From Taeniopygia guttata (lineage: Eukaryota > Chordata > Aves > Passeriformes > Estrildidae), in the NCBI RefSeq assembly GCF_048771995.1, contig NC_133027.1, positions 62,495,501-62,559,500 of the forward strand: DNA of 64,000 nt, read 5' to 3'. Below, piece after piece: positions 11,518 to 51,056 of this stretch. The position numbers and the translations under genes are program-made. Numbering within the stretch: the first letter of the stretch is position 1; each line of letters starts with the position of its first letter. The notes below the pieces were generated by a model that was not told the origin of the DNA, did no database searches, and was given only the letters and a program-made list of their open reading frames with translations.

Positions 11518-11673
11518 GGTGTGAGGATTGCGGTAAAAGCCTTATAGGAGAATGCAAACTCCACGGACCACTCATCAGGGCTAAAGATAGGGTTATTCCC
11601 AGCCGAGCCCGCCTCACCCTACCTCACTACCTCACTTTGCGAGTCTTGGAGCTGAGAGCTGGAAACCAGCAGA
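11518..11673 (+). CDS. PLAGL1: PR/SET exon A (start of PR domain)
   Basis: Acceptor TTTGTAG, donor GTAAGT. It encodes CEDCGKSLIGECKLHGPL, then IPSRARLTLP and LTLRVLEL. This matches the WCE(D/E)C...C..GP...SRAR.SLP opening of the PRDM10 and PRDM15 PR domains. The exon enters with two bases (GG) completing a codon, most simply Trp, and leaves one base for exon B. Confidence 0.88.
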
Positions 11674-14600
11674 GTAAGTATTTTAGCTCTTTTTCCCACA
11701 TTTGAGAAAAAGGAGACAAAAACACTGGCCTGTTTTCATGAGTAACTCAAGGCATAATCATTGGACGTTACCATTATGAAGACTGTTTTCAGCAGGGCAC
11801 AGCTAAAGCTCACAGTCAGCTACTGTTTTTAATGACTGACTTCTGGTAGCAGACACATAAGCTGATGGCAGGACATTAGCCAGAGCTGGTGTGACATTTA
11901 GCTGTGAACAGCCAGTTAGCTCTGTTCGGTCAATCCAAGTTTAATGAATGTTGAATTTGTATCTAATAAAAACAGCCATGCACTACTACTGTTTTTCTCT
12001 TTTCCCCAAGTATGCAAAACAGGAAAGAGTATTCAATGAAAGGTCAGAAACAAAATAAATGGTAAATGACATCCCTTATCCACCCCCTGCAAACTCAGAA
12101 GATCACAGTGGGGTAATTTACCTTTTGCAGCGTTTTCATTTCATATTATAGAAAGACTGCTATTTCCTTGTGAAAGCAAAGCAATTTGAATGCCCAAACA
12201 TGAACAAAGGAATGATGTTCTTAGTGTGCAAATTTTCCACAGCTGCCTGTATAAAATTAGTCCTGCCTAAATTGCTTCAGACAGAGAAAGACAAGATGCC
12301 TATTACTCCATTGATCTGGCAGTGGAATAACTGGAATGATGAAGAAGGCTAATACTGTATTTTTATAAATTCTCTCCACTCTTATTGGGAGAGAACAACC
12401 TCCCAAATTATTCCAAAAGGCAGAGGACTACGATAACATCAGTTTGTAGATTGAGGAGTATCAACATGTTTGTGTTGCATACTCAGTTTAACATCCAGTC
12501 ATGGATTTTTGGTACTTTTTTATTCAATGTAGTTCCCATTAAAAAAAAAAAAAAATCAGTACCTATTTACATCCTTTTTAGATTCTTCACCTTAGAATTA
12601 TTTAGTGGGCTTATTTGTCTAGAAAAAGAATCCATGTGTTCTGCACAATTTTGTTTATCTCCATTTTCACAACTGTAAGCATACAAGAAATAGTTTGTGA
12701 TGTCTGTACTAATATTAGACTTCTCTTTGTTTTCTTCACAGTCCTTGGTGTATTTGCAAAGAAAGTAATACAGAAGAGAACACAATTTGGCCCTTATGTT
12801 GGTCAACTGTCTACAAAACTGACCTGCTATGATGAGAGCAGACTAGTCCTGCAGGTAAAAGTCCACTGCCTTTCTGTGGAGTGTATATGTGTCTTTAGCA
12901 GCTCATACTTATTTAGGTATTTTAATCAGTCAATTTGCCATCTGATCTAGTTCATTATTTGTACTTTTGATGTGTAAGTATGATTATTATTAGGCAGTAC
13001 AGCATAACCTGAAATACCCAAATGTTCCTGTATACTGTGTTTTCTAGAAGTTTGGTTTCCTGCTTTCTAGTTTTACCATTTCTAGGGTGTTAGGCCTATC
13101 AGTCTGATAGCTCTTGATAATCTTTTCTCGGAACATGGCTACTGAAGTTTCTTCCCAGGTAACACAAAAGGATTTGTGCTTTGCATCATACCACTGGGAG
13201 GTTTGAGTTTTTGCACTGAGTTAGTGAGAGCAACAGAAATATGCACTAAGGCACTGGCTTAGTAGGGAGAAACAGATAGGGAAGAACTTCTTAATGAATT
13301 TTAAATGTTATTGTTATTAATTAATAATTGCTAATTTATATATAGACTTTGATACACAGTGCACTACCTCAGTTTATTTAATCAGATTGTTATTTAGGGC
13401 TAGTACCTTCTGTTGCTGCACACATAGGTACTGACTGTTTCACCTGGACTATGACACTATTATTTGTACTTTATCCAGCAAAAATTGTTGCCTCTCAGGA
13501 CTAGCCCAGCTTAGACAAATCTACATGGACATCTTTTCCCACAGGAATTCTTGGGAGTTGCAGTTAATCACAATCCTCTGGGCCCCAGTCATTGCATTTT
13601 GCTGTCAGGATCGTGGCTGAACAAAGCTCTGTGTCATACAGGGAATCCATGGTCAAGCCACAGCCTCTGTCAGGACTTTCCAACAGGTCATGGTTCTTCC
13701 AGAGTTTTGCATTTCCTATCAGGCCCTCTCAGCCCCAAATAGAGAGACAGCAGCAGCAGCTGTCCTGTGACACACTCAGTGTCTTCATTTGAGCTTTCTC
13801 CAGAAGCCTGGGACTGGAAAACACTGTGTTGTGTGGAAATACTTCTGAACTTGAGTTTGAAAGCTTTAAAGTAGTAATAGCTTCAGTAGTTGCTATAGAC
13901 TTGATTTGCACATGGAAATCACAGGAATCATCTGCCAGGAAAATAACACTAGCCTTCTAATGGATTTTCACAGCATGTGGACACCAGAAAAGGTTTGTTC
14001 CTCTCTGTAACTAAATATCTTCAGTCTTTTGATTAGACACTATTAAAAATTCAGAAAATGTACTTCTCTAACAATGGATGGATGAGCTAAGCACCCAGTT
14101 CCTTCCTCTTCACCAAACCATTGTAAACCACACCCTATCCTCTATCAGTCAGCACCATTTGCTTAAAAGTATACAGTGATAAGCACAGCTCTGGCTGATG
14201 AATGGACTGTTTCTTCAGAAGAGGAGATTAGAGTCCCAGATTTCCTACATGACAGCAGTAACTGCCTTGACTTCTCCCTAGCATGAGTATGTGACCAAAC
14301 TTGTCCAACAGGCAGGTGCTTTCATCGGAAACATGATGAAGTTAGATAAAATAGTTCCCAGAAGCAATGAAAATGCAACTTTTTTTTTGCAGTTACTTGC
14401 TCAGTTATGTGGTTGGTAGAACAAATATAAGATGTGCTGGTATCAGTTGTGCAGTTTTGTCTGTCCATGTTCGAGACACTATTGCAGAAAAGTAACTGTC
14501 TTGTTTGAGGTCAGTAGTTTTTGCCTCATAGGGGCAGTCTCTTGGAGGGTAATCTAGGAAGAATGAATTAAAAGAAAAAAGAAAAAAGATCTTTCTGGCA

Positions 14601-17600
14601 CAACTGTTCATTTGTATTTACTTTTGCATTGTTAAGAGGAAAAAGAGAAGACTGTTAAAATGCCATTATGTTGTTTGTTACCTCTCTGGGCTTATTAACA
14701 CAAGCTACACAATTGTTCCATGCAAAATGTGGTAGCACTGAAGCCTGAGATTATCAAGTGCTCAGGAAGTAGATTAAGGCATAAAACTTATCTTTCTACT
14801 TGCCTGCACTTAGTTCTTATAATATTATCTTTATATAACATAAAAATGATGAACTATAAATGGGAAATACATACAAAGACCTACAGTTATTTTAGTAGTG
14901 GGGTGCTCAGCCGGTATTCATTCTTCACTTTCTTTTGCACTTTTTGGTGTTCATTAAGAGTGATCTATTTCAAAACAATCATGATTTCAAGGGGCATATG
15001 ACCAAGACAAGATAGACAACTGATAGCTGTGATTGCAAATTGAATAAAACTAATGTGCCTCTATACAAAACTTGGTTTTATCATATTTTTTTCTCCCCAC
15101 TTTGTTTCAGGTATTGAAAGATGGAGGGAAGTACTTTCTGGACACTCCCAATGAGGACTGTGGAAACTGGATGATGTTTGTCCGGCTGGCCCGGAACCAA
15201 GAAGAACAGACCCTTGTAGCTTATCAGCACTGTGGAGAAGTTTACTTCACAACAGTTAAGGTAGTTAAACCTACATTGCTCCACCTGTTATCCAAAAGGA
15301 AATTTGTAGACAAAGGTTCTGAAAGACTAACCATTTTACAATGACAGATTGATTATATTCTGTTAACTGGATCATTATATACATAGCACCTTTAATGTAA
15401 TTTAATCTGTAGTAAAGCAAGAAGTACATGGGGTTGGTCAGGAAAAGGTAGTGTGTACTTGCTAGTAGTAGTAGTGAGGCAGTAGCTGGGTAGTGAAGAA
15501 ACTGAGCTGAGGGAAGATAAAAATCATTCACTATGATAGTGTTTAAACTGAACACTGTTTAATGCCAGGTAGTTATATGGGGAGATTATTTGGCATTATT
15601 AGATTCAACAGTACTTCATTCTGGAAATAACAAATTCCTTTCTTTTATTACTCTTCTGGACACATATTGTTTTCTGAGCACATTACCCTGTGCTCAGCAC
15701 CAGGATGTTGAGTGACTCTTCATGTACAATTTTCCATGCTCTTTAAATCTGAAGACTTAACTGCAAAACTTAGAATACTGCAATATTGCCATGAAATTAT
15801 CAGTTTATGTTAGAGACTCTGAACTGCATCTTTGTCTGAAGAGAGAGAACAAGGTACTCTGTGTTTATAAATGAAACTAGAACATACAGTCTTGGTTTTT
15901 ATTGTTTTGGCCATTTTCTTAGGCAGAGTTGGTTTTAATCAGAAATAACTCTTTTGCACACTTGGGAAACAGAAATCTATCTGTTGAACATAATGCTTGT
16001 ATCTCATTGTGAGCTACATTAAAATTAAAAAAAAATATTAGTGGAAAGTAGTTACTATGAATTAAAATCCAGCATTTAAGTTTCATATCCAAGATTGGCA
16101 CATATTTCTGTGGCATAGTAGTATTTACATTTTTTCCCCCATTTTTGTTTCTCCACCTGCACAGTGAGAAAAATATTTACTGTATAGTGGTGATGAGAGA
16201 ATAACATTTCATACTGTTAAAGTCTTTTATAACAGTATGGAGTATAGTTGATTTGGGGATTAATATCTACATAATTATTAAGAAAAAAAAAAGAAAAATG
16301 TGAAATAGTATATGCTACTCTGAGACATATTTAGACTGTGTTTGAGATTCTCATGCAGTGTATATAATTTGAGATTTCAACTTGATTGGAAATGCATGAT
16401 ATGCTTGTAAAATTGACAGGATTACTAATACTGTGTTTGGGAAGCATGAACTTTTCCAAGAAGTAGTTGTTATAAACTGGTAACTTAAAATTTCCAGTAT
16501 ACTTTAAATTCTATTGAACCAGCTCTCTGCTGACTTCAGCACAACTCTACATACTGGCATTAATGGAGAGTTGCATCCTATACACTGACACAGAGTGTCT
16601 TAGGATGATGCATGTGTCTTGGAACCTTTGCTGTGCTGTGGGTCATAGGGCATTACTTGGGTTTTGTTTCTCCCAAGTCCCAGTATCATTCAGGGTGCTG
16701 TGGCATCCTGCAGATTTTGTCCTGGTCAATGAATGCGATGGCCTTGTGCTACACTTAGGCACACCCTGCTGGTCATGCTGTGAGGCTGGCTTAGGGCTGA
16801 TTCTGAAGATTCTTTCTCAAGACATTTTTAATAAAGTGTATTAAGATGGGAATAGGATTGGGTCCTTTCCCCACTATTTTTGAAAAGAAATGGGATTTCA
16901 GTGACATGAAACTTCAGCTACTAAAGCAGACATGTAAGTGGCATCCTGACACCACCATTAGCTGACTTTCTGACCTAATGGCTGCAATCCTTAGAAGTAA
17001 GTGCTTTTAAAAGGTATAGAATTTTGAGGAAATAAAAATCATCCACGGTTGCTGCTGGTCTGATCCCAGGAGAGTTTCATGTGTGTGCTGCAGTTCTCTT
17101 ATTGTCACTGGTGGCACAGAGTAAAGACAACTTGTAGTGGATTTGGATACTGATATTTAATGTCAGTTTTACTGAGATTAGAGCTTTTGAATTACTTGAC
17201 TGTTTCACACACTGATGCACTTGTTCTCCCCTCAAAGTCACATTGAACAGCTCTCAGCCTTCCATAAAGGAGGTGGCTGCTGGTCTAGGAATGTTGGGCA
17301 GAAGTTGTACAGTGTCACGCTGTGCTTTTTTTTTGCGGGTACCCATCTCAGCTGTCACAGGCCAAGCTCCCAGACGTCCTTAAACATTTGTCTCACAATG
17401 CATAATGAGCCTTCTAGTTAATGACTCTGCCTCATGTCCTTGATTGAGTGGAGAATTCAGGACAGACCATTTCTATTTAGGCCAGGTGTTATCAAAATGT
17501 ACACCCAACCCATACTGGTTGTAGTTAGCAGGCAGGCTTGTGCCTGGCAGTTCAAAATTCAGTTTTCAGCATTAAACCCACAATTAACACCTCACCTGTC

Positions 17601-20600
17601 TGCATTCACAATCTACATTGTCTTTTCCTTACCATGCTTATCCCACACTAATATTACAAAGTGAGGGGATTTTATGATGTCTCATTTTCTGGAATAAGAC
17701 TCATCTACTCTCTTTCCGGGCTGGTTTGTTTGGTTGTGTTTTGTTTTTTTGTTTTTGGGGTTTTTTGGGTTTTTTTTTTGTTTGTTTTTGGGGGTTTTTT
17801 TGGGGTGGTTTTTTTTTTTTTTGGTGACTCGAGTTTATCTTTGTAAAACTGAAACTACAAGTACAGTGCAGTTTGGCTCTACCCCTGTTGCAACAATGTT
17901 GATTTTTATTATAGATGAAGAAAATTGTGTACAGGGTCAGGGAGTCATGTAAATTATGACCCCAAAGTTTAGTTTTCTCTTTTGCATTTAAAGAACTAAT
18001 AGATCTTTAGCCAGTGAGTGTAATCACACCTCTCTTTTTCTATTTGCTGTATTATTGACTGAAAGTATGTGTCCCAAGAGATCATAGTCCAGTCCAATGA
18101 GAGATTTGGGCAAGCATGGGAGACTGCAGATTATGGGCTCCCTTAATCCTGTGGGGACAGGCTTCAGTGGAAAGAGGGCAGAGTTGCAATAAAGCACACT
18201 CACAGCAAGCCTGATGCATTAGAACCAGCCCATGGAAGGTGTCAATTCGCCTTGCAGTCCACATATTGATCAGCTCTGCACCCATGTTCAGTGTGACATA
18301 TCCAGGAGGCATCCAGGATCTTGTGCATTCACAATGCATTTTTCCTTTGCCTGTACCCTGTAGTTAAGTGTTGGGCCTCCAGACATCAAGGAATGGGTGT
18401 GGGATATTGCTTGGAAACACTGCTGGATGTCTGAACATCACAGACAAATATATCTCACTGAGCAAAGGTTATGAGGACTGAGGCATCCCTCCTGCTACTG
18501 CCCCCCCCCCCCATCCCAAATCTCGGTGCATACACAATTCCACTTTTAGAAACAGAAAGTGTCAAGCCCTAGTGGGCCGTAATGCTCAAAAAGTTCTTGA
18601 ATCTTGAAATTAGGTTACCAATAATTTAAACATGGTCAAAAAATGCAGTTTGGGTAAGGACAAAATATTGCACACCCCTACCCCTCCTATCTTTCTTACT
18701 GTTTGGTTTAGGAAAATTGACACAAGTAAACATGTGCTGTTTTTTTCCATTCACAGCCAATTGAACCCCACACAGAATTGAAAGTATGGTACGCTGCCGA
18801 TTATGCCAAATTTATGGAAGCTTCTGCAGTCTTCATTAAAGAAGAATCAGATGTCTCTCCTTTGCCTTCAGTAGCAGTAAGTACCCTTACTCTGCATTGA
18901 AGCCATCACTAGACATAGTAAATTATGGGTTTTTTACATGTTTTCTCTGTTTATATAACTCTAGTAATGCAAATGTAGGCCACAGGGTACTTTTAGCAAT
19001 TTTAGCCAAGCAGCTACTCACAGAAAGGCTGTTCTTCCTGTCCTGTGTTTGTAATGCAATGGAGCCATCAGATATAGACAGAAGTAAGTGGCACTACTTG
19101 ATGTGTTGGAAAGACTTAAGATGGGCACTAATTTTTGGATAACCAAGTTGTCCAGCCTCTGACTTTTTTCACCATTTCCCCTTCTTTTGCTCTGACTGGT
19201 TGGCTGGAGTACCCACTAATTATTTCAGTCTTTCCTGTTCAGTAACCCTTCTCTTTTAATTCAAATACCTTCCCCTCTGTATCATAGCAGAAATCCTTAA
19301 ACTGATAGGAAAAGTTTGTTAAGTGTTTAAAACATGGCTGTGAAAATCAATACTTAATCTAGAAAGAATAGATTGGAACAAATGAACCAGGAATACAAAT
19401 GAACAAGGAATTCGTGTTCCAAGAAGGCTCGTGCGGCCTTCAGAATATTCCCCAGAAGGAAGGTGAGGGAGAGCCACAGTATCAGACACCAGTCTTAGCA
19501 GAGAAGAGGGCTCAGTTTGGAAATAAAGATGGATTGGATACAGCCTCACCATGAGCAAGCTAGCCCAAGAGCAAGGGAAAAGGAGGACAGTTTATCAGAA
19601 GCGTACATAAAAGGTAGATGAAGTTGAGGAAGTACATGGTCATGCATTAATTGGAAGTACATTTCATCAGTGATTGGAGACTTTTGGCAATTGTTTTTCA
19701 TCAGATTTTTTATAATATTAGTATTTAAAGTGAATTCAACTGAATCCAGTAGAGCTCTTATTTCCACAGAAGTAATACTTCAAAATAATACACTGTCTAA
19801 AAAAAAAAAAATTGTTTTAAGTCAGGATAGGCTTGAGATCCCTAAACCTAAGGTGTTTCTTATCCAGTTAATGGAAGTCTAATGCCAAATGTCAAGCTAA
19901 GTGAGGAAGTCTCTCCTGGAGCCATTAACCATTGTTGTGTGGTAAAGCACAGAGTCATCCCAAGACACAAAGAAATCTGTATGACTAAACTATGTTTTTG
20001 TACAGAAATCCATCCCGTTTTTGTGTGGTTGGACTAGCAGATAAAGTATGTCAGTCCAAGGATAAAGTACAATTTACAACTGTTTATTTCATAAATGCAA
20101 CAAATGTAGAGACTTTGAAATTCAGTAAGCACAGATAAACAAAGGTGTAGGACTCAGAACTGTTACAGTAAATGCTAAACAAAAACATATAAACCAGTAT
20201 TTAGCCAACCTTACTTTTCCTTTGAGTTTTTACTCCTAGAGAGACTCTATTGCCAGTTGAACAACTAGGTGGTAGCACATGGAAGTAAATATAAGCAGAG
20301 ACAATGATGAGTCTTAGAAAAGCAGACAAGATGCGTGAGAAGAATATGACCCTTCCTTAGAATGTTTAGTAAGAAAGACCTGTCTCTGTTCTCATTGCAG
20401 AAAGAGCCCGTAGACCCTTGGATATGTTCCAGCTGTGGAAGCACTTTTGCAACTTTTGCTCTGCTGGAATCTCACCAGTGCATCCATAAAGAGCGAGTGC
20501 TTCCTACAAGGTTCAGACCACCAAATAAATTGGGACCTGTAAAAGCAAAAAACAAACTCAAAGGGAAACTGAGAGGAGCGTCATTAGGCAAAAGTATTAC

Positions 20601-22568
20601 TCAATGCTTTGGGACCATTTCCTGTTCCTCTGCTGCAAAGTTCAGCTGTGCCAGCTCAGGAAGCACTTGTGGTGCTCTCGTAAGGTTTATACCTAAATGG
20701 AGAAATGGTCGGTCTTCACTGCTGAAGGGAAAAGAAGTGAAGCAGCCAGATAGTTACCCCTGCCGACTCTGTGGGAAGATATTTGATTCCATTGACAAGC
20801 TCACGGTCCACACTTATGCGCACAAAGGGGAGCGTCCCTACAAGTGTTCACAGCACGGATGCACAAAAGCCTTCATTTCCAAATATAAACTGCTCAGGTA
20901 CACCTCTGAAGGCATTCCTTTTCTGCTGGGGGGTGGTGGGGGGAGGGGAAGGCATATTTTTCCTTTGGGATGTTCTAGTGACAGTTAATCCCTGAGGTCC
21001 AGTTTTTATTATTACTGTTTCTGATATACCTTTAATTATGGTGGCTACTCAAAAAGATGATGTTGAGCAGTTTTAAGCTACTCTATGCTTTATGATCAAC
21101 AACTTCCTCCCTCCCCACAAAATTTAGGCTTTTACAAATAACCTGAGAATTTGCGAGAATGCCTTCCTTCGAGAATTCCAGTGTTTTCAAGTTTTGAGGG
21201 TGCAAGAGTTTATGTACTAGAATAAATGTGAACATAAATAACTTGTTTTGTTTCTGTGTTTTGTTTTTTTTTGTTTTTTTTTTTTCTCTTAGGCACTCGG
21301 CCACTCATTCTCCACAGAAATCTCACCAGTGTGGCTACTGTGAAAAGACCTTTCACAGGAAAGACCATCTAAAGAATCACCTTCAGACTCATGACCCCAA
21401 CAAGATGGCCTTCAAGTGTGAAGAGTGTGGCAAGAAGTACAACACCAAACTAGGCTATAAGAGACACTTGGCTCTTCATGCTGCCACCAGCGGGGACCTC
21501 ACCTGTAGGGTGTGTGCCCAAGAGTTTGGTGGTACTGAGGTTCTGTTGGAACACCTCAAAAGTCATGCAGGGAAGCCGACTGGCAACATGAAGGAAAAGA
21601 AGCATAAGTGTGACCACTGTGAGCGTCACTTCTATACCCGTAAAGATGTGCGACGTCACATGGTGGTTCACACAGGCTGCAAAGACTTCCTGTGCCAGTT
21701 CTGTGCCCAAAGGTTTGGGCGGAAGGACCACTTGACACGCCATACTAGGAAGACTCATCCACAGGAACTGCTGAAGAGCAGGTTGCAGAATGGTGACTCA
21801 GTGGGTCTCCTTGACCAGCTCTTTTCATACAGACTGAAGGAAGATGCCAACATGCTGTCCCCTCTTCCTGAAAGGGTCCCTGTGCCAAATGGGATTGTGA
21901 ATAGTTCAGAAACAGAGGAATACAACTGTTCACATCTTCATTCCCAGTCAAGCTTACAAACTGCTCTTCCTCTTGAGTCTTCTCCTCCCTTGCAAAGGAT
22001 GGACTGTGCAGACAGCCTCCCGACTGTCCCTCCCACACCATGTTCAGCAGCTGTCCCTATCAACCTGAACCTTCATCAGCCTAACAAATATGACCTCAGT
22101 TCTACCTCATTTGCCACAGGATCCCTCAAGAATCTACCAATAAAAGTGGATGTTAAAGGTTACAATGTGCATCTTCTTGAGGACCTGCCATTACCAGAAC
22201 CTCAGTCTCTCCACAAAATCAGTATGGAAGAAGCTTCCTCAGGGCCTGTAGGGGATACTAACAAGTACCCACTGCACAAAGAGACAGAGGCAGCAGCTGA
22301 AACTGCAAGCCTGCCTTTCATGGATCTCACTCATGTGATGGGTTTCTGGCAGCTCCCACCAGGTGACAACCAGAACACTATTGGGGACATCACAATGGCG
22401 TTTGGCTCAGAGGAACCATCACACAGGCTGAATGGCCTTGGCCAACAGCAAGGTTTTCAGCTAGCAACTGGTGGGATGGCCATAAACCAGCTGCATCATC
22501 TTCCTCGCTCCTTTCCATCCACTACAAATTCTGTAACATTGCCTCACTTTCACCATGCCTTCAAGTAA
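11518..22568 (+). CDS. PLAGL1: PLAGL1-type zinc finger protein with N-terminal PR/SET domain (six exons; start exon missing)
   Basis: Predicted nuclear DNA-binding transcription factor. Coding exons are 11518-11673, 12742-12854, 15111-15260, 18757-18876, 20401-20897 and 21293-22568, all with GT-AG introns and matching phases. Together they give about 770 residues beyond the unseen start. Order: PR/SET domain (roughly residues 1-165, with the KRTQFGP, NWMMFVR, LVAYQ and KVWYAA motifs of PRDM10/15), an isolated C2H2 finger, a basic linker, seven PLAG-type C2H2 fingers, then a long Ser/Pro-rich C-terminus ending LPHFHHAFK. Human PLAGL1 ends LPHFHHAFR and shares GFWQLPP and DLPLQEPQS-like motifs, so orthology is firm and synteny agrees. 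Human PLAGL1 has about 463 residues and no PR domain. Whether the PR part methylates histones cannot be read from sequence; many PRDM domains are inactive. The first coding exon and promoter are not identified. Confidence 0.9.
11674..12741 (+). other. Intron A-B of the PR-PLAG gene
   Basis: AT-rich intron of about 1.1 kb with a 15-A run at 12541. An open frame across 12,615-12,950 overlaps the next exon and is intronic up to 12741. Confidence 0.8.
12742..12854 (+). CDS. PLAGL1: PR/SET exon B
   Basis: Acceptor TTCTTCACAG, donor GTAAAA. It encodes LGVFAKKVIQKRTQFGPYVG and continues to SRLVLQ. The GVF...I.KRTQFGP block is a signature of PRDM10 (GGVFSKRRIPKRTQFGP) and PRDM15. Starts with two bases finishing the Ile codon split with exon A and ends in phase 0. 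Confidence 0.93.
12855..15110 (+). other. Intron B-C of the PR-PLAG gene
   Basis: About 2.3 kb, AT-rich, with no recognised gene or repeat. Short open frames here lack family resemblance. Confidence 0.75.
15111..15260 (+). CDS. PLAGL1: PR/SET exon C
   Basis: Acceptor TTTGTTTCAG, donor GTAGTT, exactly 50 codons. It encodes NEDCGNWMMFVRLARNQEEQ and LVAYQHCGEVYFTTVK, nearly the PRDM10 core ([22 protein letters not shown], from memory). The invariant NWM and AYQ of PR domains are intact. Confidence 0.94.
17719..17822 (+). repeat. G/T-only low-complexity tract
   Basis: About 100 bases almost entirely G and T, with G runs of 3-5 separated by long T runs. It lies inside an intron. The open frames across it encode only Phe/Gly/Val-rich repeats and are not genes. 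Confidence 0.8.
18501..18512. repeat. Poly(C) run of 12
   Basis: Uninterrupted run of 12 C within an intron. Confidence 0.9.
18757..18876 (+). CDS. PLAGL1: PR/SET exon D (end of PR domain)
   Basis: Acceptor CATTCACAG, donor GTAAGT, exactly 40 codons. It encodes PIEPHTELKVWYAADYAKFM, then FIKEESDVSPLPSVA. ELKVWYAA.YA is the conserved end of PRDM10-type PR domains. IKEE fits the psi-K-x-E sumoylation consensus; use of that site is only inferred. Confidence 0.93.
18877..20400 (+). other. Intron D-E of the PR-PLAG gene
   Basis: About 1.5 kb, AT-rich, with no recognised gene or element. An in-frame ATG at 20362 lies upstream of the exon E acceptor, so it is coding only if this intron is retained or an alternative first exon starts here. 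Confidence 0.7.
20401..20897 (+). CDS. PLAGL1: Bridging exon E: PRDM-like finger plus PLAG fingers 1 and 2
   Basis: Acceptor CTCATTGCAG, donor GTACAC. This single 497-base exon is one open frame. It opens with a C2H2 finger, WICSSCGSTF...LLESHQCIH (C-x2-C-x12-H-x3-H), placed where PRDM10 has its first post-PR finger. A basic linker rich in Lys and Ser follows (KAKNKLKGKLRG), then PLAG finger 1 (YPCRLCGKIF...KLTVHTYAH) and most of finger 2 (YKCSQHGCTKAFISKYKLLR). PRDM-like and PLAG parts are thus physically joined, which rules out two neighbouring genes. There is no methionine in the exon, so it cannot supply the mammalian-type start before finger 1. Confidence 0.94.
20898..21292 (+). other. 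Intron E-F of the PR-PLAG gene
   Basis: Short intron of 395 bases. It has a G-rich patch just after the donor and a T-rich acceptor tract at 21,243-21,290. Confidence 0.9.
21293..22568 (+). CDS. PLAGL1: Last coding exon F: PLAG fingers 2-7 and C-terminal region
   Basis: Acceptor TTTCTCTTAG. The first base completes the split Arg codon, giving LLRHSATHSPQKSHQC, the PLAG family junction. Fingers 3-7 follow, including HRKDHLKNHLQTH, CEECGKKYNTKLGYKRH, YTRKDVRRHMVVH and FGRKDHLTRHTRKTH, all with intact Cys2His2 ligands. The C-terminal part has PLAGL1-specific blocks: EDLPLPEPQSLHK, MGFWQLPPGDNQNT and the ending LPHFHHAFK before TAA at 22566-22568. A Ser/Pro-rich stretch in between is the likely activation region by analogy with the family. 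Confidence 0.97.
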
Positions 22569-39972: not shown

Positions 39973-42900
39973 CTGTATACAGAAATGAGAAATTTACAAA
40001 ATAGGAATTAACATGCAAAATCAAACCATTCCAATAAAGTCTTCTAGATCATGAAAATAAGAGCAATCTAGACAATAATATTATTTATGGCACTAATTAT
40101 TAGTAGTTAAATCAATACATGTACCACCAGGATAAACATCTTTAGTTTGCCAAAGCTTCTAACATGCTGGCAATTTCTGTTCCTAAATAAAACAGATAGG
40201 ATTTCAGTGTGGCCAATTAAGATTTTCCACATTTCTTTCAGATAGGATGTTTCAGATTACACAAAGTGAAAAGTAACTATTTCCTTAGCTACTCTAGATT
40301 GTAAGGAAATCTGATGTTCCTTCAGTAACAGTACCAAAGTTTTGATACTGGAAATCAGTAAGACAAAAATGTGATGTTAACTTTCTTTCCAGTAGTTAGT
40401 TTTTTTTTTTAAGAAGCAATAATTAGTCCTTTGAGACCAGCAAGTTTTTCCCATTACCTTCAGACATGACAAGTGAGTTTTAAACCAAGTTTGTAAGAGA
40501 GAATTCAGGTAACATGTTGCAAGGTTTCATTTGCAGTCAGGCGTACCTTTCGCTCCTCTCTTATTGCCTGTTTTCTGGCTTTGCGATCCTCTTTGCTCTC
40601 AGATTTGGAACGAGGCTGTGTTGATACTTTTGGCAGGTCACTGCCATTTATCATTTGCATGCGTTCCACCTGCTTAGCAGTGAGACCCTTCTGAGGCAGG
40701 ATGTGTAGGGGAATTCCAGTCTTCTGAGAAATTTTTATTGGTTTGGGCTAAAATAGAGTGCATACAAATTAGTGGCCCCTAGTTTTCTCTCCAAGAAGAG
40801 CACATGGCACTGCCTTATTAGCATAAAAATTTCAGATCCGGATTTAACAGTAATAAATGTTAAGTCTCCTCATGCTATTTAACTCCCCCACAAACCCACA
40901 CATTAATCTCAAAGTATGAAATCAAAACATCTGTGACAAAATCTGACCTTCCAGAACAAGAAAAACATTTTTCCCTTCTATTTAAATATTACTGAAAAAA
41001 TAAAGAACTGAAGTAGTCACCTAATATTCCTTTATAAGCTTGCAAGAAAAAGGTTTAATTTCAAATTTGGGGATATCAAGCTGTGCTCTAATGATGGACA
41101 ACCTATGGAAGACCAAAAAACTAGAATAAATTGTTCCAGACCATAGGAAAATAAACCTGAGCAAATACGTGGCTGTGAGACACAGATTACAGAAAGGTGT
41201 CTCACAGATAACAACAAAGGAAATTCCTTGCTCTGTTTCTGCCTAGCTATCATAGAAACTTTGAACTGACTGTTTTCCTTCTAATAAGAAAAAATATATC
41301 CAAACATTTCTTTAGTGAAGAAATAATACCAGAGCCTTCCCCAACCCTCATTTCTGCTCCCTGTCTTTTAAAATAGATACCCATTGATAAAACAAACACA
41401 TTTATCTCAAGTTTTCACAGTGTTATTCATTGGAGTAAGTTTAATAATTTTACCTTTGATGGCTCCTTAATAAGTGTGGGGTGATTGTATAAGTTTGAAT
41501 AGGTACCTAAGTCACACAAAGAAAAAAGAAAGTAGTCAAGAAAGGCTTGCAAATCGAAATTATGAATTGTACTGCTATCTAGGTTTTGGAAGTGCCTCCT
41601 GTTGTGCTCAGAGAATAAACCATTTTACCTGAAGCACTACCAGGAAAGTTCTGAAATCACCTATCATTTACTTTGAAATCCTACAAACAAATAAACAAAC
41701 TCCAAAATACTCACTCAAAATGGATTCACAATCCCACTTTTCTTTTGGCTCCTCAATAACTACAGTTACTATTTCTTCCTTTTCCTCCTCACTTTCTTCA
41801 TTTGCAATAGAGTCCAAGTCTTCATCAGGTTCAAGAGCATCCAATTTCACACAACTTTTTCAAAGTTCAGCAAACAAAAAAAATACGTTTTATCTCTTAT
41901 TGAAAATGTAAAATCATGTAAGCCTAGACTCCCTTAAGTCAAGCCCAATAAAGCTATTTCCAATTAAATTTGCAGCAAAAATGAAGTTTCCTTAAGTAAG
42001 CCTCCTCAAAATAAACTAAAAACATTAGAACAAAGACACAGTCAACAATAGAAGTATTTCTGCTTTTCAAGAGGATGAATGATGCTGCTTACATTAAGTT
42101 CAACATGATTTCTCCACTTAATTTTATCATGCAAATGGATAATACTCGTATGCAGCTGCTTTTATTGTGGGATGCAATCTTTTGAGCACATGAACTTGAA
42201 ATAACACACCCAAAACTTCCATACAAACAGAGGATTACCAAACTACTTATGTGAAGCAGTACTTCTGGGAATACATACTTCTTTGCTTTCTCTTTGTAGT
42301 AATCATCCAGGACTTCCTGCAGCCGAGCATTGTCTGTGTTAATGTAGCCTTCTAACTCCACATTATCTAAGGCTCCAATCTCATCTTCATCAAATTGTTC
42401 ATAAAACTAAAATAAAGAAGTGGATATCTGTAATTAGACCACATTTGTCACACAACTTCTTGATAGCTTAAAGAAGAGCCACACATTTCTTTTTATATGC
42501 CTCTTTTTCCTCTCCCCTCTCAATTTGCTGAACAACTGCCAAACACATCTGCAGTAGGATTTCCTCCTTACTGTCAATACTCTTTCTGCATGGGACTCAC
42601 AGTTATCTTACAATAATATATAAACCAGCTTCTAGAAAACGTTTTTTATTCTGAGGCATTATTTCAATCTATGCCTTAAGAAGCCTGTCACTGCTCAGAA
42701 CAAAAGTTACACTCTATTTCTATGCTCTGTTCATGAATGTATACTTCACCAGGGACCTGTAAATGGCTTGTTGTGCTGAACTCAGCCTCTCAGACAAAAG
42801 TGTAACACTAATTATGAATGCTCATACAGTCACTGGAGTAATTTTGGTTATCTCCATCAGTGCTAGGCCTTGCAATAGCAATTAACACTACAGCCTAGGT

Positions 42901-45900
42901 GATACAGTAATGTATAACACCTAAATGTATCCAGTATTAAATGCAGAATACATGCAAAGTATTGACTGCTAGAAGCAGTAAAATCTGCACAGGTATACAG
43001 GACACTGCCTGATGAAATTAATCAATAGACAAGGAAGCATTTAATACCATTCACAGTTACACTCTGGAGCAGCCTCACCTTCTCAAATCTGTCATCCAAC
43101 AGGGTCAACTGCTCATTCCGTCTTATTACTGAAGATGTCATAGAATATTCTGTGAAACGACTCCTGGTTTCTTCTTGCATAAAAAGGAATTCTTTTGCCT
43201 GTCCATTAACCTCACCATCTGACAAAGGACCTTCTGAATCATAGTCTTTATCAGTACTGCAGCTATCCTTTTCATCACTATCATCTTCCATATCTTCCCA
43301 TTCATCTTCATCCCCAGCATCTGGTCCCCTGAACAGAAGCACAAAACAGGTTTAGAATAATACAAGGACCTTTACATATCTCTGACCTGTGCTGGGTTAT
43401 CTGAAACAATGTGGTAATAACAGATTTAAATATTGAGTGAGACACTTGTCTGAGAGCTGAAAACATTGCTAGCTGGATCATGCATCTGTGTACTGAGACT
43501 GAAGTTTATTTTTATATTCAGCTGTACATGTCAAAGCAGAAAAATATCAGCTGCACTCTTGACTATTAAAACAAGCAAAATGTCATACTGTTCATGAAAT
43601 TATGAGAATGATACCAAAACCTAAGTAGATAAAATGCGGTGGCATATCACATGAAGCATTTGTAAACGTTTCAGAAACACCCATTAGCCTTCATCAATAC
43701 TATTACTGATGTATTTTACATGTAATAGATGACAACATTTTAAACAGTTCAGGAACACTATTATTCCAAACATAGCATATAATCCATGACCTCAAAGTAA
43801 CAACTGAAACCCATCTCTTGAATAATATAAGAAACTTCATTTCTTATCCGAGTAACACAAGGTAATATTTTTTCAACACACCAAGAGATTTAATTTGAAA
43901 TCTGAAACCACTGTGGCTTCCCATACCACCACATGCAATATCAAATAGCATCTCTCCTATTTACATAACAAATATTTCAACAAAGGTCTATCTACCGCTT
44001 CTGTGGTTTATTTGCTTGTAGAACAAAATCATCTTCCAGGATATTTTCTGGATTGTCGAAGTCAAAATCATCATCAAGAGCTGCAACAATATCTGGGTCA
44101 AAATCTAGCCGTGGTCCTAGAAAGTTGAAAAAACAAACCATAAATATTTACATTTCTCTGACAATATCAAGCTACTTTCCTGGATAAAAAACAATCCAGC
44201 TGGACTGTTAATTTGCAGTAAGGAAAGCTGAGACCAAAGAATCAAAAAATCCCTCAAGAAAATTTGTAGATCTGATAGAAGCCAGGGCATGTCACCAATC
44301 TATTTGCCAATTTTTATCACTCAGAAAAAACATTTCCCAGAGGTCTTAAGCTTCCATAAATGCATTTTAATATAAAATATTATAAAGAAAAAATATCCAG
44401 GTTAAAGCATCACATGATCAATGGCCAGCATTAGCTCCAACCCTAAAATTCCCTACATTACAAAAGGTTAAAAAGTGTTTCTTTGCTGCAATTAGCAGAA
44501 TTGTCATTAGTATCCGTCAGGACAGAGACAACTGCTGTAGTTCCTTACTGTTGTGAAATATGGAGATAGCTGTGGAGTCAATGTCCAGTGCAAACATGGA
44601 TACATAACAAAAACCTACTCACAACCTGAAACACTCAAATAACACTAATGAAGAAATGTAAACATTACTTGGCATTTGAAAATAAATTGAGTGAAAATCC
44701 AGTCCCAGACTTGGATTCAAAGACACAGAATAATAAATTACTAGTATTATCTACAGTTCCCCCTGTTATTAGTTTGTATTTGCTATGCAATAGTAAGAGC
44801 TCATGGATTCACCCTCTTCAAGCAAACCTAAAGAACTCTTGTTAGTTCATCACAGAAATAAGTCTCAAATTGAAACATGGGCCTCTCACAGATCATTCCT
44901 TATGTCTGTTACTGAGCCTGTTCTAAGCCAAAAAAAACATGACATCACAATAGAAGCCTTAATTACCATCTAATTTCTAGATGGCAACTCACATCACAGA
45001 AAGGTGAAAAATACCTGAAACAGGAGCAGCTTTATTTAACAAGCCCACATCCTCTTCAAACTCTGTGGCAAATACTGAGGAAGGCAACTTAATGGATGGA
45101 GCCTTAAAAAAAGAAACAGAAAAACATGTATTTGTTCTCAGTTTCTTATTTGAGCTCACATTAACAAAATCATGCAGACGCTCCCGTGACTGAGAGAAAC
45201 TCTGTGAGCACTACTTAAATGTTACAACAAGTGCTATGTTATCCATGGCAAAATTTCAGAGTTACACAATGATAGCTACGTAAAGTGCTGGCAGCATCAA
45301 TTCTCATAGCAATATTCTCCAGTAGAGAAACAGTATTTTTTTACATCTCTAAAGCTTTTTAGAAAATGGTTGTACAGTAGGCACACTGAAATTTTGAAAG
45401 TTTTTTTGGTTTGTTTTGGAGAACACTAACACATATTTGAATTCACCCCCTGACTGAAAGGCTTGTTAAAAGCTTCACAACAAGCACATCCAACCTAACT
45501 TTAAACCTTATTTAGTATCACCAAGCTGTATCTGAAAGGTACTTCTGACCAAGGCTATTAGTTTTGACTAAAATTACAGTATTTGGTTAAATCAAACACC
45601 CTCAGCTATAAGTGACTGGCAATGGCATGCTTCATTGTTTCAAAGCATTTACTGCTTTTCCACTCCAATATGATCCAGCATCGTCAACTTCTACATGTTA
45701 TGCCAGCAATTGAAAAGTTTGGTTTTATTCCATCTGGCTTCTATTACATTCCCCTTTAAAAACATGGTGTGCTGATAATCCAACCTGGTATATTCGTAAC
45801 TCCCAGAGCATTCAAAAGTTCTAAAAAACCTTAAACATAAATACCCACCCCAGAAAAACACATGACTTGCTCAAACAAACACCTTTGCAAGCCATCTCTG

Positions 45901-47668
45901 TAGAAAAAAGTTTCTCATGGGTATCTGAAGTGTTTCAACAGTGTGCTAGCAAAATAATGTTCATCAGTAAACTCTGGCTTGTCTGCTTCTGGGTTAACTT
46001 GTAGGAAAGGCAAGTTGGTTGTGGGTCAAAAGGATCCTTATATATAAATATAAATATACACACACACACACAATTAATGTGTCTAGAGAATGTTAATGCT
46101 CCAAAGAACAGTACTAGCTTTTAACAAAAGTACTACTCACTGAAATTCTCTGAATTTCATCCTCTATGTGCCCCTCACTTGTGATGACAATTCTGCTTTG
46201 CTGTCCACGCACAGATGGGACAAGCTCAGAGGGACCAGAGGCTTCTTTGAGGTGCTGCAAATAGTCATAGTCATCATCAAAGAAGACACCATACTTGCGC
46301 TGCTCTTCCCTTCTTTGCTCCTCATGCCCCTGGGAAGTGGGGAGAGAATAAAATAATCAAAATGAATACATTTAGTTACTCAAGTCCACTTAAAACTTAC
46401 TAGCAAAAGGAAAAGCAACACATCAACGGAGAGTGTCTGACTGTTCAAGTCCTCTCTGCACTCCTTACCCTAATTCACAGCCGATTACAATGTTGTAATC
46501 AGCTGGTTCCACGTCTGGGTGCTGTCTGAGCAGAACCTTCCCATCAGCAACCATACCCAACAATGCCTATTTTATCACAGTGACTCAGGCAAATTTTGTT
46601 GTTGTTTTTTTAATACATTTACTACATTTAATATGTTTACTCTAATGCCAGTTAAGTCATCCTTCAACCATCAGGCAGTAACTCACAACTATGAAATTCC
46701 CTACAACAGCCATTTTTTTTTTAAATAAGCCAAACTAAAAACAGGCTATGTTTTTGAACTGTATAATCGCGTATCAACTTTCTTCCTCCATGGTGTTTCT
46801 TATTTGAATAAACCTCAGTATTAAGAGTGAGTATTTACTTTCTGTGTGGGCAGCAGAACTCTCTGGGGTGCAGTATCATCAGCAGCAAGAGGATCCCTCT
46901 GACTTCGGTGCACTAAGTGAAATGTTACTGCTTTCTTCTTCTCTATGAAGGGCTTTTTCTTCTTGTGAGGCTGCAAAAGGAAATTTCGTTAACTGTTAAC
47001 AAAAAATTAAATATTAAATGCACCTGAAGAGAACATGTAGTGTGCTGCTATATTAATTTTAAGGCAATGCCTTATAAACACAGGCTTGGAGACAAAGCAT
47101 AAGGAGACCAGCGGGAGCTCAACTCATCTCCCCACACGCACAACAGACATTTCAAATGTTTTAACAGCAAACGCAGCTTCTTCAGCTGGAAAATGGCAAT
47201 ACATCGAACAGTAAACATCTGATAACAGCACATACCGTTTAACATACAGCCCTAGAAAAGAATTCTGCAACACACTTCATCCAAGAAACACGGGAAACTG
47301 GAAAGGAAATTCATCTAGACGCATCTTGCTTCGTGAGAGTTCTTTAGGCGGCTGCTCCTAGAGCAGCAATTCAGCCTCAGACACGAGCACCGTGCGCAGC
47401 ACACTATCCAGGCACAGCTCTAACATCGAAATACACATGCGGCCTGCGGCCTGGACCAACAACCCCCCCCCAAGTATTCTCAACTGGCTGAAAGCCTTTC
47501 CTACGACTTACGAGTTACCACATCCGACACAGAAAAACACTTCTAGCAAGGCTTTACCTACCTCACAAACGGCGTTACAGCCCATATGGGATACATGGGG
47601 GCGACCCTATTGCTCTAACCTGCCTTCCCCCCTGGCAATCCCGAGTCCCAACACGGCACACTCACCAT
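39859..47668 (-). CDS. LTV1: LTV1 ribosome biogenesis factor, complete, 11 exons
   Basis: LTV1 is a 40S assembly and export factor that binds pre-40S particles with ENP1/BYSL and RPS3 and is released after phosphorylation. All 11 coding exons were assembled; phases agree and give 472 residues (human about 475). In order: a basic start (MPHKKKKPFIEKKKAVTFHL), the YGVFFDDDYDYLQHLKE block, acidic Asp/Glu runs in the middle (FDPDIVAALDDDFDFD, EWEDMEDDSDEKD), the conserved SRFTEYSMTSSVIRRNEQLT block, NRLQEV-type helix, KEKWDCESI, then a basic Lys/Arg-rich tail ending NVQGLKLS. It sits in a CpG-rich promoter and its neighbour upstream is the 3' end of PHACTR2, as in human. No defects seen. Confidence 0.96.
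40547..40747 (-). CDS. LTV1: LTV1 exon 10
   Basis: 67 codons, donor GTACGC. Encodes KISQKTGIPLHILPQKGLTA and QMINGSDLPKVSTQPRSK, the conserved C-terminal LTV1 block. Confidence 0.96.
41454..41506 (-). CDS. LTV1: LTV1 exon 9
   Basis: 53 bases between acceptor GACTTAG and donor GTAAAA. Encodes TYSNLYNHPTLIKEPSK, matching human STYSNLYNHPQLIK. Confidence 0.95.
41715..41854 (-). CDS. LTV1: LTV1 exon 8
   Basis: Donor GTGAGT. Encodes CVKLDALEPDEDLDSI, acidic EESEEEKEEIVTVVIEE, then KEKWDCESIL. The acceptor ends in GAAAAAG, with the pyrimidine tract displaced about 20 bases upstream, so it is weaker than usual; the frame leaves little doubt it is used. Confidence 0.93.
42279..42406 (-). CDS. LTV1: LTV1 exon 7
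   Basis: Acceptor TTTATTTTAG, donor GTATGT. Encodes FYEQFDEDEIGALDNVELEG and RLQEVLDDYYKEKAK, the predicted helix shared with human LTV1. Ends with two bases of a codon completed in exon 8 to give Asn. Confidence 0.96.
43079..43328 (-). CDS. LTV1: LTV1 exon 6
   Basis: Donor GTGAGG. Acidic stretch DAGDEDEWEDMEDDSDEKD, then the most conserved LTV1 block TRSRFTEYSMTSSVIRRNEQ and DDRFEK. Confidence 0.97.
43996..44116 (-). CDS. LTV1: LTV1 exon 5
   Basis: Acceptor ACTTTCTAG, donor GTAGAT. Encodes PRLDFDPDIVAALDDDFDFD and LEDDFVLQANK. Confidence 0.96.
45015..45102 (-). CDS. LTV1: LTV1 exon 4
   Basis: Acceptor TTTTTTTAAG, donor GTATTT. Encodes APSIKLPSSVFATEFEEDVG and LLNKAAPVS; human reads KLPSSVFASEFEEDVGLLNK. 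Confidence 0.96.
46058..46073. repeat. (CA)n microsatellite
   Basis: Short CA run after a TATAAATA-rich stretch, in an LTV1 intron. Confidence 0.8.
46141..46329 (-). CDS. LTV1: LTV1 exon 3
   Basis: Acceptor CCACTTCCCAG, donor GTGAGT, 63 codons. Encodes REEQRKYGVFFDDDYDYLQH and LKEASGPSELVPS, the strongly conserved N-terminal block. Confidence 0.97.
46839..46970 (-). CDS. LTV1: LTV1 exon 2
   Basis: Acceptor CCTTTTGCAG, donor GTAAAT, 44 codons. Encodes PHKKKKPFIEKKKAVTFHLV and HRSQRDPLAADDTAPQRVLL, following directly on the initiator Met in exon 1. Confidence 0.97.
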
Positions 47669-48075
47669 GGCGCTGTCCCCCGGCCGCTCCCGCCGTCCCC
47701 AACCCCGCTCGCTCCCACGCGGGCCGGGCCTCAGCGCCCCACGGCTGCGCCCTCCATCTTGGCATACACCAGTGACCAGCGGGGGGAAGGGGATAAGCGG
47801 CCAGTCCGGCCAGGTTTGGCAGCTTTTGTTTCCCAGTTAAAAAAACCCAAACAATAAGTATTTTCCCAGACGGAAATAATATTTTGATAAAAGAGAGGCT
47901 CAGTGGACCTAAGCAGGATGCTCGTCAGAGACATATTTTCTCAGTTCTCCCCTCAAAATAGTTGGGAATGGTTCGGGCCGGCAGCGTCCCCAATGGCAGC
48001 GCGCGGCGCAGGCGGCCAAGGAGCAGCGCGCGTGCGCAGCAGCCGGGCCCGGGCCGGCGCTCGGTGAGGGGCTGT
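47640..48075 (-). promoter_or_regulatory. CpG-rich promoter region of LTV1
   Basis: The sequence around and upstream of the LTV1 start is GC- and CpG-rich in contrast to its AT-rich surroundings, with the strongest parts at 47,670-47,760 and 47,975-48,065 (for example GCGCGCGTGCGCAGCAG). This is the usual look of a housekeeping promoter. No TATA box is evident. The transcription start is not determined, and no divergent gene was recognised on the plus strand. Confidence 0.7.
47666..47668 (-). CDS. LTV1: LTV1 exon 1: initiator ATG only
   Basis: On the minus strand ATG is followed immediately by the donor GTGAGT, so exon 1 contributes only the start codon plus the 5' UTR. Exon 2 continues in phase 0 with PHKKKKPF, exactly the family's N-terminus. 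Confidence 0.9.
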
Positions 48076-48176
48076 GGGCGCTGAGCCTGGAGAACTGGGA
48101 GTGAATAACACGGGTTGCCATTAACAGTGTTTGGCCTGTTAATAACTCACAAATATTTGAGTTCTTATTTCTGACG

Positions 48177-48558
48177 AGGAATGGCTGGGGGAACTGGGTC
48201 TGGTCAGAGGAGAGAGACTAAGGGGGAGACCTCATCAATGTCCATGGGTATCTGAAGGAGGGTGTCAGAGTTTGGTCCAGGCTCTGCTTGTTGGTGCCAG
48301 GCAATAGGACAAGAGGCAACAGACAGAAACTGGTGCACGGGAAGTTCCGCCTGAGTAGAAGGACGAATCTCTACCATGCAGGTGATCACACAGTGGAATA
48401 GGTTGCCCAGAGAGGCTGTGGAGTCTCCCTCACTGGAAATACTCGAGAACCGTCTGGACACAATCGAGTGCCATGTGCCTTAGGATAGCCCTGCGTGAGC
48501 AGGGAGGTTGGACCAGATGTTCCACTATGGTCCTTTCCAACCTGAACCATTCTGCAGT
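48177..48558 (+). mobile_element. CR1 LINE 3' end
   Basis: About 380 bases of typical CR1 3' sequence: GACCTCATCAATGTCC, GGTATCTGAAGGAGGGTGTC, GGACAAGAGGCAACAG, GGAAGTTCCGCCTGAG, TAGGTTGCCCAGAGAGGCTG, AGGTTGGACCAGATG and TCCTTTCCAACCTGAACC, then ATTCTGCAGTATGAC. The 5' part of the element is absent, as is usual for 5'-truncated CR1 copies. It lies about 100 bases upstream of the LTV1 CpG-rich promoter. Confidence 0.9.
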
Positions 48559-51056
48559 ATGACTTTAGCTGTATAAATTTTACCTACACCATGTAGCAAG
48601 GCTGTGCACACACACACGTACTCACGTACAGGCTCCTTGCTAAGAAAAAGAGAAGTGTGCTTGGTATTTTAAAATCTGCTTTGTGACTTTTCAAAAGAAA
48701 GTGTAAAACACAGAGGGGAGGGTTTTTTCCCCATGTATTTACAGGCAAATAGTAACAGCTAAGAAGAGGTTTTTACTGAAAATTCAGAAAAGTTATCCAC
48801 ATTATGTGTGTATGGATGCAGCTAAATACAGATACATGCATGTACCTTAAAGTATTAGCTTTAGTCATATTTGGGTGGATTTCATTGGTTTTCAGTAGGT
48901 GTCACTAAAGCTCCAAAATAATCCAGATTTTCATTCTTCTGGCCGTTTTCTGAAGTTTTGAATCTACCAAGTTTCATCACACCACTCTTGCAGAAGTGCA
49001 CAATCTAATCTGATCCACTCAATCCGGAGTATTCGGATGTACCCGGAGGATTCAGATTATCTCTGCATATATCTGTGCAAAGGCTGGACTTTCCTCTTCC
49101 TTGTGAGAAGTGCCCGGTGAGTGTCTCGTTGCTGTCAGCCGTGTGCGGGTGTGGTGCGCACCCTGCGGCAGGAGGAGAGCAGCAATGACCCCTCCTGGAC
49201 CGCAGCCTGCAAATGGATTTTTCGTCTGCACCCAGCAGCAACAACTCCCTGCAGTATGTCTGTACTGCCAACCCAGCGACAGCTGGAATGGCAGAGCTGG
49301 ATTTTCACAAGGTAATTAAGAACAGACTCAGTCAGCTGTTGAAAACACAGTACTTAGCATTTATTTGTGGGGTAATGATGTAGGATAGATTACTCTTTAT
49401 TGCTTCCAAGTTCCTGACATGCCTCTCTGGTATCCACAGAAGTGCATAGACTTGCTGACAGGATTACACTTCACAATCCTCTAAACCTGGCACCTCCATA
49501 TCTGGTGGTGGCAATACTGTCATTCCACACACCCCAAATCTGGTCTAGGAGCATTGTTTCAGTTTGGATGTGGGAAAAAAATTAACTTTTGCTCTCAGCT
49601 CTGCTGTTAGTCAGCTGTTTCCTAAGTGTAAGATAAGTTTACCTGTTAAGCCTCAGTGTTTTCTGCCTTTCTTTAGTTTATATTCTTTCCCTGAATTTCC
49701 TGGTTAGATTCTTAAGTACTTAGAGGGAAGGGTATGTATGATATGTTCACACAGAGATTAAAACAGGTTCCTTCCCATATCACAGAAGATTGCTCATTTA
49801 TACTAACAGTAATACATCTGTATACTACATCTGGGGATGAGTTTGAATTGTGGATTAGCAGCAATCGGCACCACATTACCTCTTTTGTTGATACCTGAAG
49901 GTGTCTCATCTCTTGATTTATATAAAAATTCAATATTTAGTATTGCATATATGTGAAGTTTGTATGAGAGAGTGTCTCAGAGACTGCTTAGGCTTCTCGT
50001 TTCATCTGAGCCTTACAAGGCCATCCATCTCACTGCATTCTCTCACTGGGTTCTTTGCAGAGACTACAAACAGAACTCAGCAAAGAGCATCTACAGAGAC
50101 TGAGGGGGTAAGTACTCAGGTCACTGACCACTTCTTTTATGCTTGCAGAAGAAAAATGGTCAGTGTAGAGTCTCACTGTCAAGGCAGCCACTTAAAAGAT
50201 AATATGCTGGAAGCACATCCTTAACATAATCATCAACTTGCCTTCTGTGTGAGGAAATTTATACTAACTTTTTCTCTTAGTTCTTGCAAAGAATAAATTA
50301 TTTCAAAGTAATTAAAACCAAAAGTTATTGTCAGTCACTTTGAGAGTTAAAAGATTGGCAGATGCACTGCTGACCAGGCTGAACCCTCAGCTGTGCAGAT
50401 CAGTTTTGTTCCTGTGCAGAGAGTGTATTTCCACTGTAAATCTGCTGTCAATGAAACTGGTAAGAAACACTTCTTGCTGATAAAAAAAAGGGGAAACTGG
50501 GAGCATAGATTAAGTCTCCAAACCATTGAGCTACAACCCTAACTTTGTTTTTTTAAACCAAGTGTCACCTCTTTGAACACACCTCTCCATGAATACACCA
50601 CACACATGGAATTTACCAGATGTGTTTGAAGGATTGCCAGAATTCAAAGGAAGGTTTCAGCTACCTTTTTTCATTTCCATGAGGAGGGAGCTTAATTTGG
50701 CCTCTGGAGGCTCTCTGAATTTAACTCTACTATGTGTGCCTATGTACATGCTAGAGATTCAAGAAGAAAATACTTTCAGTAAAGATTTTCTGAACAATTT
50801 TAAAGAGGTGATTTTTAAATTTTTCTATTTATAAATATTCATTCATATATATCTATAATTCAAAGAGCTAAACAATTGTCTGAGGCACTTGGAACCGTGC
50901 CCAGCAGAGTTTCCTACAGTACTGTACAACTAGGCAGCACACTTGCAGTTTCCTTGTTTAATACAAACGCCATAAGACAAGCATAACATATGTGCTGTAT
51001 ATACCCCCAATACATTCTTTATGTTTTTCAGGTGATGATACTGGAATATATTTGTG

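Follow-up and report, generated by a model that had tools for sequence, protein, structure and literature searches.

A Predicted PLAGL1 Orthologue of Taeniopygia guttata That Encodes a PRDM10/15-type PR Domain

A 64,000-nucleotide stretch of the Taeniopygia guttata genome (assembly GCF_048771995.1, contig NC_133027.1, positions 62,495,501 to 62,559,500 of the forward strand; hereafter the window, numbered from its first base) probably holds a single gene, the orthologue of PLAGL1, in which a PRDM10/15-type PR domain, an extra C2H2 finger (finger 0) and a linker precede the array of seven PLAG fingers and a tail like that of PLAGL1. The PRDM family may accordingly include PLAGL1 as a member missed so far.

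Exon Structure and Reading Frame

The located part of the gene comprises six exons, all on the forward strand:

Exon A, 11518..11673, plus strand: opening of the PR region (CEDC..., HGP, SRARLTLP); its first base is codon position 2
Exon B, 12742..12854, plus strand: PR domain, GVFAKK to KRTQFGP
Exon C, 15111..15260, plus strand: PR domain, NWMMFVR to LVAYQ
Exon D, 18757..18876, plus strand: end of the PR domain (ELKVWYAADY), followed by an acidic stretch
Exon E, 20401..20897, plus strand: finger 0, basic linker and PLAG fingers 1-2 in a single open frame lacking Met
Exon F, 21293..22568, plus strand: PLAG fingers 3-7 and a PLAGL1-type C-terminus (ending LPHFHHAFK), with the stop at 22566-22568

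Joined from base 11520, exons A-F form 769 codons plus a stop, in phase. The encoded protein starts with a PR domain and one C2H2 finger and continues through a basic linker into seven PLAG fingers and a tail of the PLAGL1 type. Inspection of the exon borders gives GT-AG ends for all five introns, pyrimidine-rich acceptors and an AG ahead of exon A. The frame used is free of internal stops in six of six exons, the one stop of exon F being the terminator. Each of the other two forward frames contains at least one stop in every exon; on the reverse strand, a single frame, in exon C, is likewise open. The borders of the six exons quoted in a preliminary description of this DNA all lie where it placed them, and the joined frame is open. 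Its assignment of PLAG fingers 3-7 and the PLAGL1 C-terminus to exon F agrees with both the motif count and an alignment of the C-terminus to provisional sequences of three human PLAG proteins, among which PLAGL1 is closest. Because exon A begins at codon position 2, a coding exon is required upstream of it.

The PR Domain

Pfam assigns residues 46-161 of the joined protein to PRDM2_PR (PF21549, E = 6.8e-38), with a weaker match to SET (PF00856, E = 2.1e-7) and further matches to C2H2 families. The best solved relative of the PR region is PRDM10 (3ihx, 1.8e-25), followed by PRDM4, PRDM11, PRDM1 and PRDM9. At the sequence level, two marks of the PRDM family, an N-terminal PR domain and C2H2 fingers after it, are found in the same joined frame.

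An assembly-independent check compared four solved PR domains (PRDM10, PRDM4, PRDM11 and PRDM1) with the raw window by tblastn. Exon C is matched by all four queries (2e-12 to 3e-7), exon A by three (PRDM11 3.5e-5, PRDM4 1.1e-4, PRDM10 0.24), exon B by three (PRDM10 1.5e-4, PRDM4 0.023, PRDM11 0.036) and exon D by two (PRDM10 1.9e-4, PRDM1 0.025); between them, the matches to exons A-D are collinear. The background consists of five off-target matches with E values of 0.47-0.85 and two matches of reversed queries (0.35 and 0.76), and because these are comparable to the PRDM10 match on exon A, that match alone means little. The PR domain that the preliminary description spread over four exons is supported by Pfam and tblastn on exons A-D, apart from the first letter of its WCEDC opening: exon A supplies only the GG of this Trp codon, whose T must derive from the upstream exon.

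PLAGL1 binds GC-rich sites. In the proposed protein, the PLAG fingers would bring the PR domain to GC-rich targets, where, by analogy with PRDM10, it would act mainly as a folded module for co-factor recruitment or for aid in transcription activation, rather than as a proven methyltransferase. The fingers of PRDM10 together with its PR-containing N-terminal part activate a reporter (PMC7368010). The signature residues FGP, NWM and WY are kept in the PR exons, and Tyr residues at positions 151 and 155 of the joined protein lie opposite both Tyr residues of the motif WYGDEY in a provisional PRDM9 sequence. Since PRDM9 requires Tyr-357 for full catalysis (PMC4919437), the kept tyrosine means that the PR domain may have methyltransferase activity, for which this residue is not sufficient.

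Loss or Gain of the PR Domain

The PR domain of the window is 50% identical to that of PRDM10 (67/133) and 51% identical to that of PRDM15 (78/153), and these two are 49% identical to each other (65/133), with a provisional PRDM15 sequence in both comparisons. Because the three are about equally distant from one another, the simplest reading, which is not decisive, is that the window domain would be an old third lineage alongside the other two, not a recent capture. PRDM10 and PRDM15 have been termed one subfamily (PMC7368010). A tree of seven PR domains, two rows of which are provisional sequences, groups the window domain with both at 94/90, just below the level that the tool stars, and then joins this trio to PRDM4 at 95/93 (starred). 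The PRDM10/15-like character proposed in the preliminary description is supported by Pfam, by the match to 3ihx and by this grouping; placement in that subfamily is tentative, and the tree does not order the members of the trio.

A lineage-specific gain, in which the PLAGL1 of an early sauropsid or bird acquired the PR exons and the donor was PRDM10, PRDM15 or a paralogue since lost, seems unlikely. Such a gain would agree with human PLAGL1, which is not known to have a PR domain. A recent capture, however, should sit nearer to its donor than the window domain does to either candidate, given that the candidates themselves are as far apart. Moreover, the PR block is entered in phase 1 and left in phase 0, and thus does not form a frame-neutral cassette. 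Loss also explains more easily how large the penultimate exon of the human gene is. When this coding exon is skipped in human PLAGL1, the transcript becomes approximately 475 bp shorter and the protein goes from seven to five fingers (PMC5619815). Exon E, likewise penultimate, measures 497 bp, of which approximately 350 bp encode finger 0 and the linker. Reckoned from a start codon just before finger 1, the human exon presumably has approximately 150 bp of coding sequence and, opposite finger 0 and the linker, approximately 325 bp of 5′ untranslated region. These similar sizes would fit the view that the human lineage lost the PR domain, in which case a decayed remnant is to be expected in the human gene; the argument is one of exon size only.

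The length of exon E leaves a remainder of 2 when divided by 3, so that exon F would be out of frame with exon D in a transcript that skips it; skipping of the human counterpart, in contrast, yields the five-finger isoform (PMC5619815).

Between the two histories offered in the preliminary description, loss in mammals and gain in a sauropsid ancestor, the equidistance of the PR domains and the size of exon E lean toward loss in the human lineage, neither being decisive. The PR-bearing form would then go far back, as a third line of descent alongside those of PRDM10 and PRDM15, and on the human side the PR exons would have been lost, leaving a seven-finger protein that starts just before finger 1. 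A broader proposal appears evenly balanced between being right and wrong: PLAGL1, perhaps together with all other PLAG genes, derives from a third gene of the PRDM10/15 type; this lineage has kept the PR domain and so has a PRDM member that is not yet counted; and mammals shed the domain when imprinting of the gene arose or before, the sequence of the PR-proximal finger and of the linker becoming 5′ untranslated region.

One Gene or Two

Eight C2H2 motifs, finger 0 and the seven PLAG fingers, follow the PR domain in the joined frame. Finger 0, the basic linker and PLAG fingers 1-2 share one exon and one open frame, and finger 0 has the position of the finger that follows the PR domain in PRDM10 and PRDM15. 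In a comparison with 26 fingers, several of them with provisional sequences, finger 0 shares a Trp before the first Cys only with the post-PR finger of PRDM10 and that of PRDM15; the post-PR finger of PRDM9 did not fit the search pattern and was left out of this set. The claim that the fifth exon joins a PRDM-like finger to PLAG fingers 1-2 thus holds for the shared exon and frame, and “PRDM-like” holds by position, the sequence scores not being clearly specific. The exon E junction is supportive, not proof, of one PR-PLAG gene.

A descent of the PLAG fingers from those of PRDM10 or PRDM15 was also considered. The local scores of the window array against PRDM15 (263) and PRDM10 (240) are matched by the controls CTCF (265) and ZNF568 (320), with provisional PRDM and CTCF sequences. 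Because controls score as high and the signal is not family-specific, this descent is not claimed.

One alternative to a single gene is that exons A-D, with unseen exons, belong to a PRDM-like upstream gene and that an adjacent PLAG-only gene starts from a promoter in intron D-E or from an unseen first exon. Intron D-E does offer a possible start:

Candidate alternative start, 20362..20400, plus strand: ATG within intron D-E, in frame with exon E and open up to it

This ATG lies in an open in-frame stretch (20350-20400) that directly precedes exon E and runs into it without a stop. Isoforms without the PR domain have been described for PRDM2, 3 and 16 (PMC2082429), a precedent for separate PR-less products. 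The failure to find the 5′ end within the window and the lack of clear PRDM specificity in the sequence of finger 0 also favor two units. Against them, the end of exon D and the start of exon E are both in phase 0, and the donor of exon D is good. In addition, finger 0 occupies the PRDM10/15 finger position in the same frame and exon as PLAG fingers 1-2, and an upstream gene would be left with a PR domain without fingers of its own. Two adjacent transcription units are accordingly rather improbable, and if a PR-less protein is made, two isoforms of one gene are likelier than two genes.

The positions of Met residues limit where such a protein could begin. Before residue 383 of the joined open reading frame, Met occurs only at 110 and 111 (exon C) and 159 (exon D), so that the span from residue 159 to 383, which lies after PLAG finger 3, is free of Met. 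A start just before finger 1, as in the human protein, is impossible here because exon E has no Met.

Several points weigh against a single PR-PLAG gene of the proposed kind. Its first coding exon and start codon are the first: the 11.5 kb of the window upstream of exon A gave no convincing candidate when T/GT donors in the first 11,500 bases were searched with simple score cut-offs (best 60) and then with a looser cut-off and a last-residue filter. The unspliced frame upstream of exon A reaches a stop before any ATG. Because of these two results the gene is incomplete at its 5′ end, and the first coding exon may lie outside the window. Secondly, given a promoter at this place, the ATG at 20362 may allow a PR-less protein that carries finger 0 ahead of the seven PLAG fingers. 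Thirdly, finger 0 scores no better against PRDM10 and PRDM15 than against ZNF568, making the exon E junction weaker proof than it appears: in ungapped comparison with the 26 fingers, a ZNF568 finger ranks first (53), the post-PR finger of PRDM15 second (52) and that of PRDM10 eleventh (38). These scores lower the confidence in one joint gene and raise that in two units. Fourthly, the tree path from the window domain to PRDM4 (1.71) is shorter than that to PRDM10 (1.92), with PRDM15 nearest (1.53). The PRDM15, PRDM9 and human PLAG sequences are, moreover, provisional ones, and the biochemical role of the PRDM10 PR domain itself has been called unknown (PMC7368010). Finally, the joint transcription of exons A-D with E-F is predicted from sequence, and any selective constraint on the PR exons is likewise putative.

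That the PR exons are a decaying relic, open yet disused, is very improbable: four open exons with intact splice sites keep FGP, NWM and WY at approximately 50% divergence from their relatives, and unselected exons of such age should carry stops.

Assignment to PLAGL1 and Genomic Neighborhood

The fingers resemble those of human PLAGL1 (154/191 identical) and PLAG1 (150/191) more than those of PLAGL2 (133/191), and the C-terminus is closest to PLAGL1 (105/247, compared with 71/250 for PLAG1 and 77/238 for PLAGL2), all against provisional human sequences. The window lists 53 open reading frames of at least 100 amino acids; eight besides PLAGL1 were scanned, and one proved to be LTV1:

LTV1 exons, 42089-43351, minus strand: LTV domain (4.5e-13) in 43022-43351; downstream of PLAGL1 and convergent with it

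The open reading frame at 42089-42406 has no Pfam match and appears to resemble LTV1. In the human genome, LTV1 is presumably also a neighbor of PLAGL1. Tail and neighbor together give good but not formal support for a PLAGL1 orthologue, which would have a different N-terminus.

CpG-rich stretches, scored in 200-bp windows, lie at 47251-48200 and, shorter, at 49001-49200; the longer is perhaps the LTV1 promoter. The same windows show none near the PLAGL1 exons, in contrast to the imprinted mammalian PLAGL1 promoter. Rfam gives no matches at gathering scores. Searches of viral and prokaryotic contig collections for relatives of the locus confirmed none: 6, 0, 47 and 72 stretches with short patterns were found, and none passed tblastn.

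Literature and Significance

Among the open papers listed, with 20 of 53 matches listed for one query and all for the others, none deals with a PR-bearing PLAGL1 as judged by title and abstract opening; subscription papers and database annotation lay outside this search, and automatic annotation may exist. The term “PLAG” is absent from the main text of PMC2082429, PMC2200798, PMC5519329 and PMC13113268. One survey ran human PR domains as queries against chicken, kept the best matches and counted 16 bird orthologues (PMC2082429), a best-match approach that could have missed a PR-bearing PLAGL1. If the ancestral protein had a PR domain, the PRDM list of 19 members (PMC13113268) would omit one vertebrate member and human PLAGL1 would be a shortened PRDM protein. 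The history of this imprinted growth regulator would then include a step open to testing, the loss of a chromatin or co-factor module. Non-mammalian PLAGL1 should not simply be equated with the mammalian protein.

Comparison with Known Systems

The window gene shares features with two PRDM proteins and differs from each. PRDM15 likewise has the PR opening CEDC and one finger after the PR domain; unlike the window gene, it has many more fingers and no known PLAG array. PRDM10 (tristanin) has KRTQFGP, NWMMFVR, LVAYQ and ELKVWYAA in common with the window PR domain, and its order of PR domain, one finger, linker and finger array is the same. It differs in having ten fingers and a Q-rich tail (PMC7368010) in place of seven PLAG fingers and a PLAGL1 tail. 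On the PLAG side, PLAG1 and PLAGL2 are set apart by a less similar C-terminus in the provisional sequences. Neither of them is known to have a PR domain. Human PLAGL1 starts just before finger 1 and is not known to carry either the PR domain or finger 0. The human protein, also called ZAC1, has seven fingers (PMC5619815).
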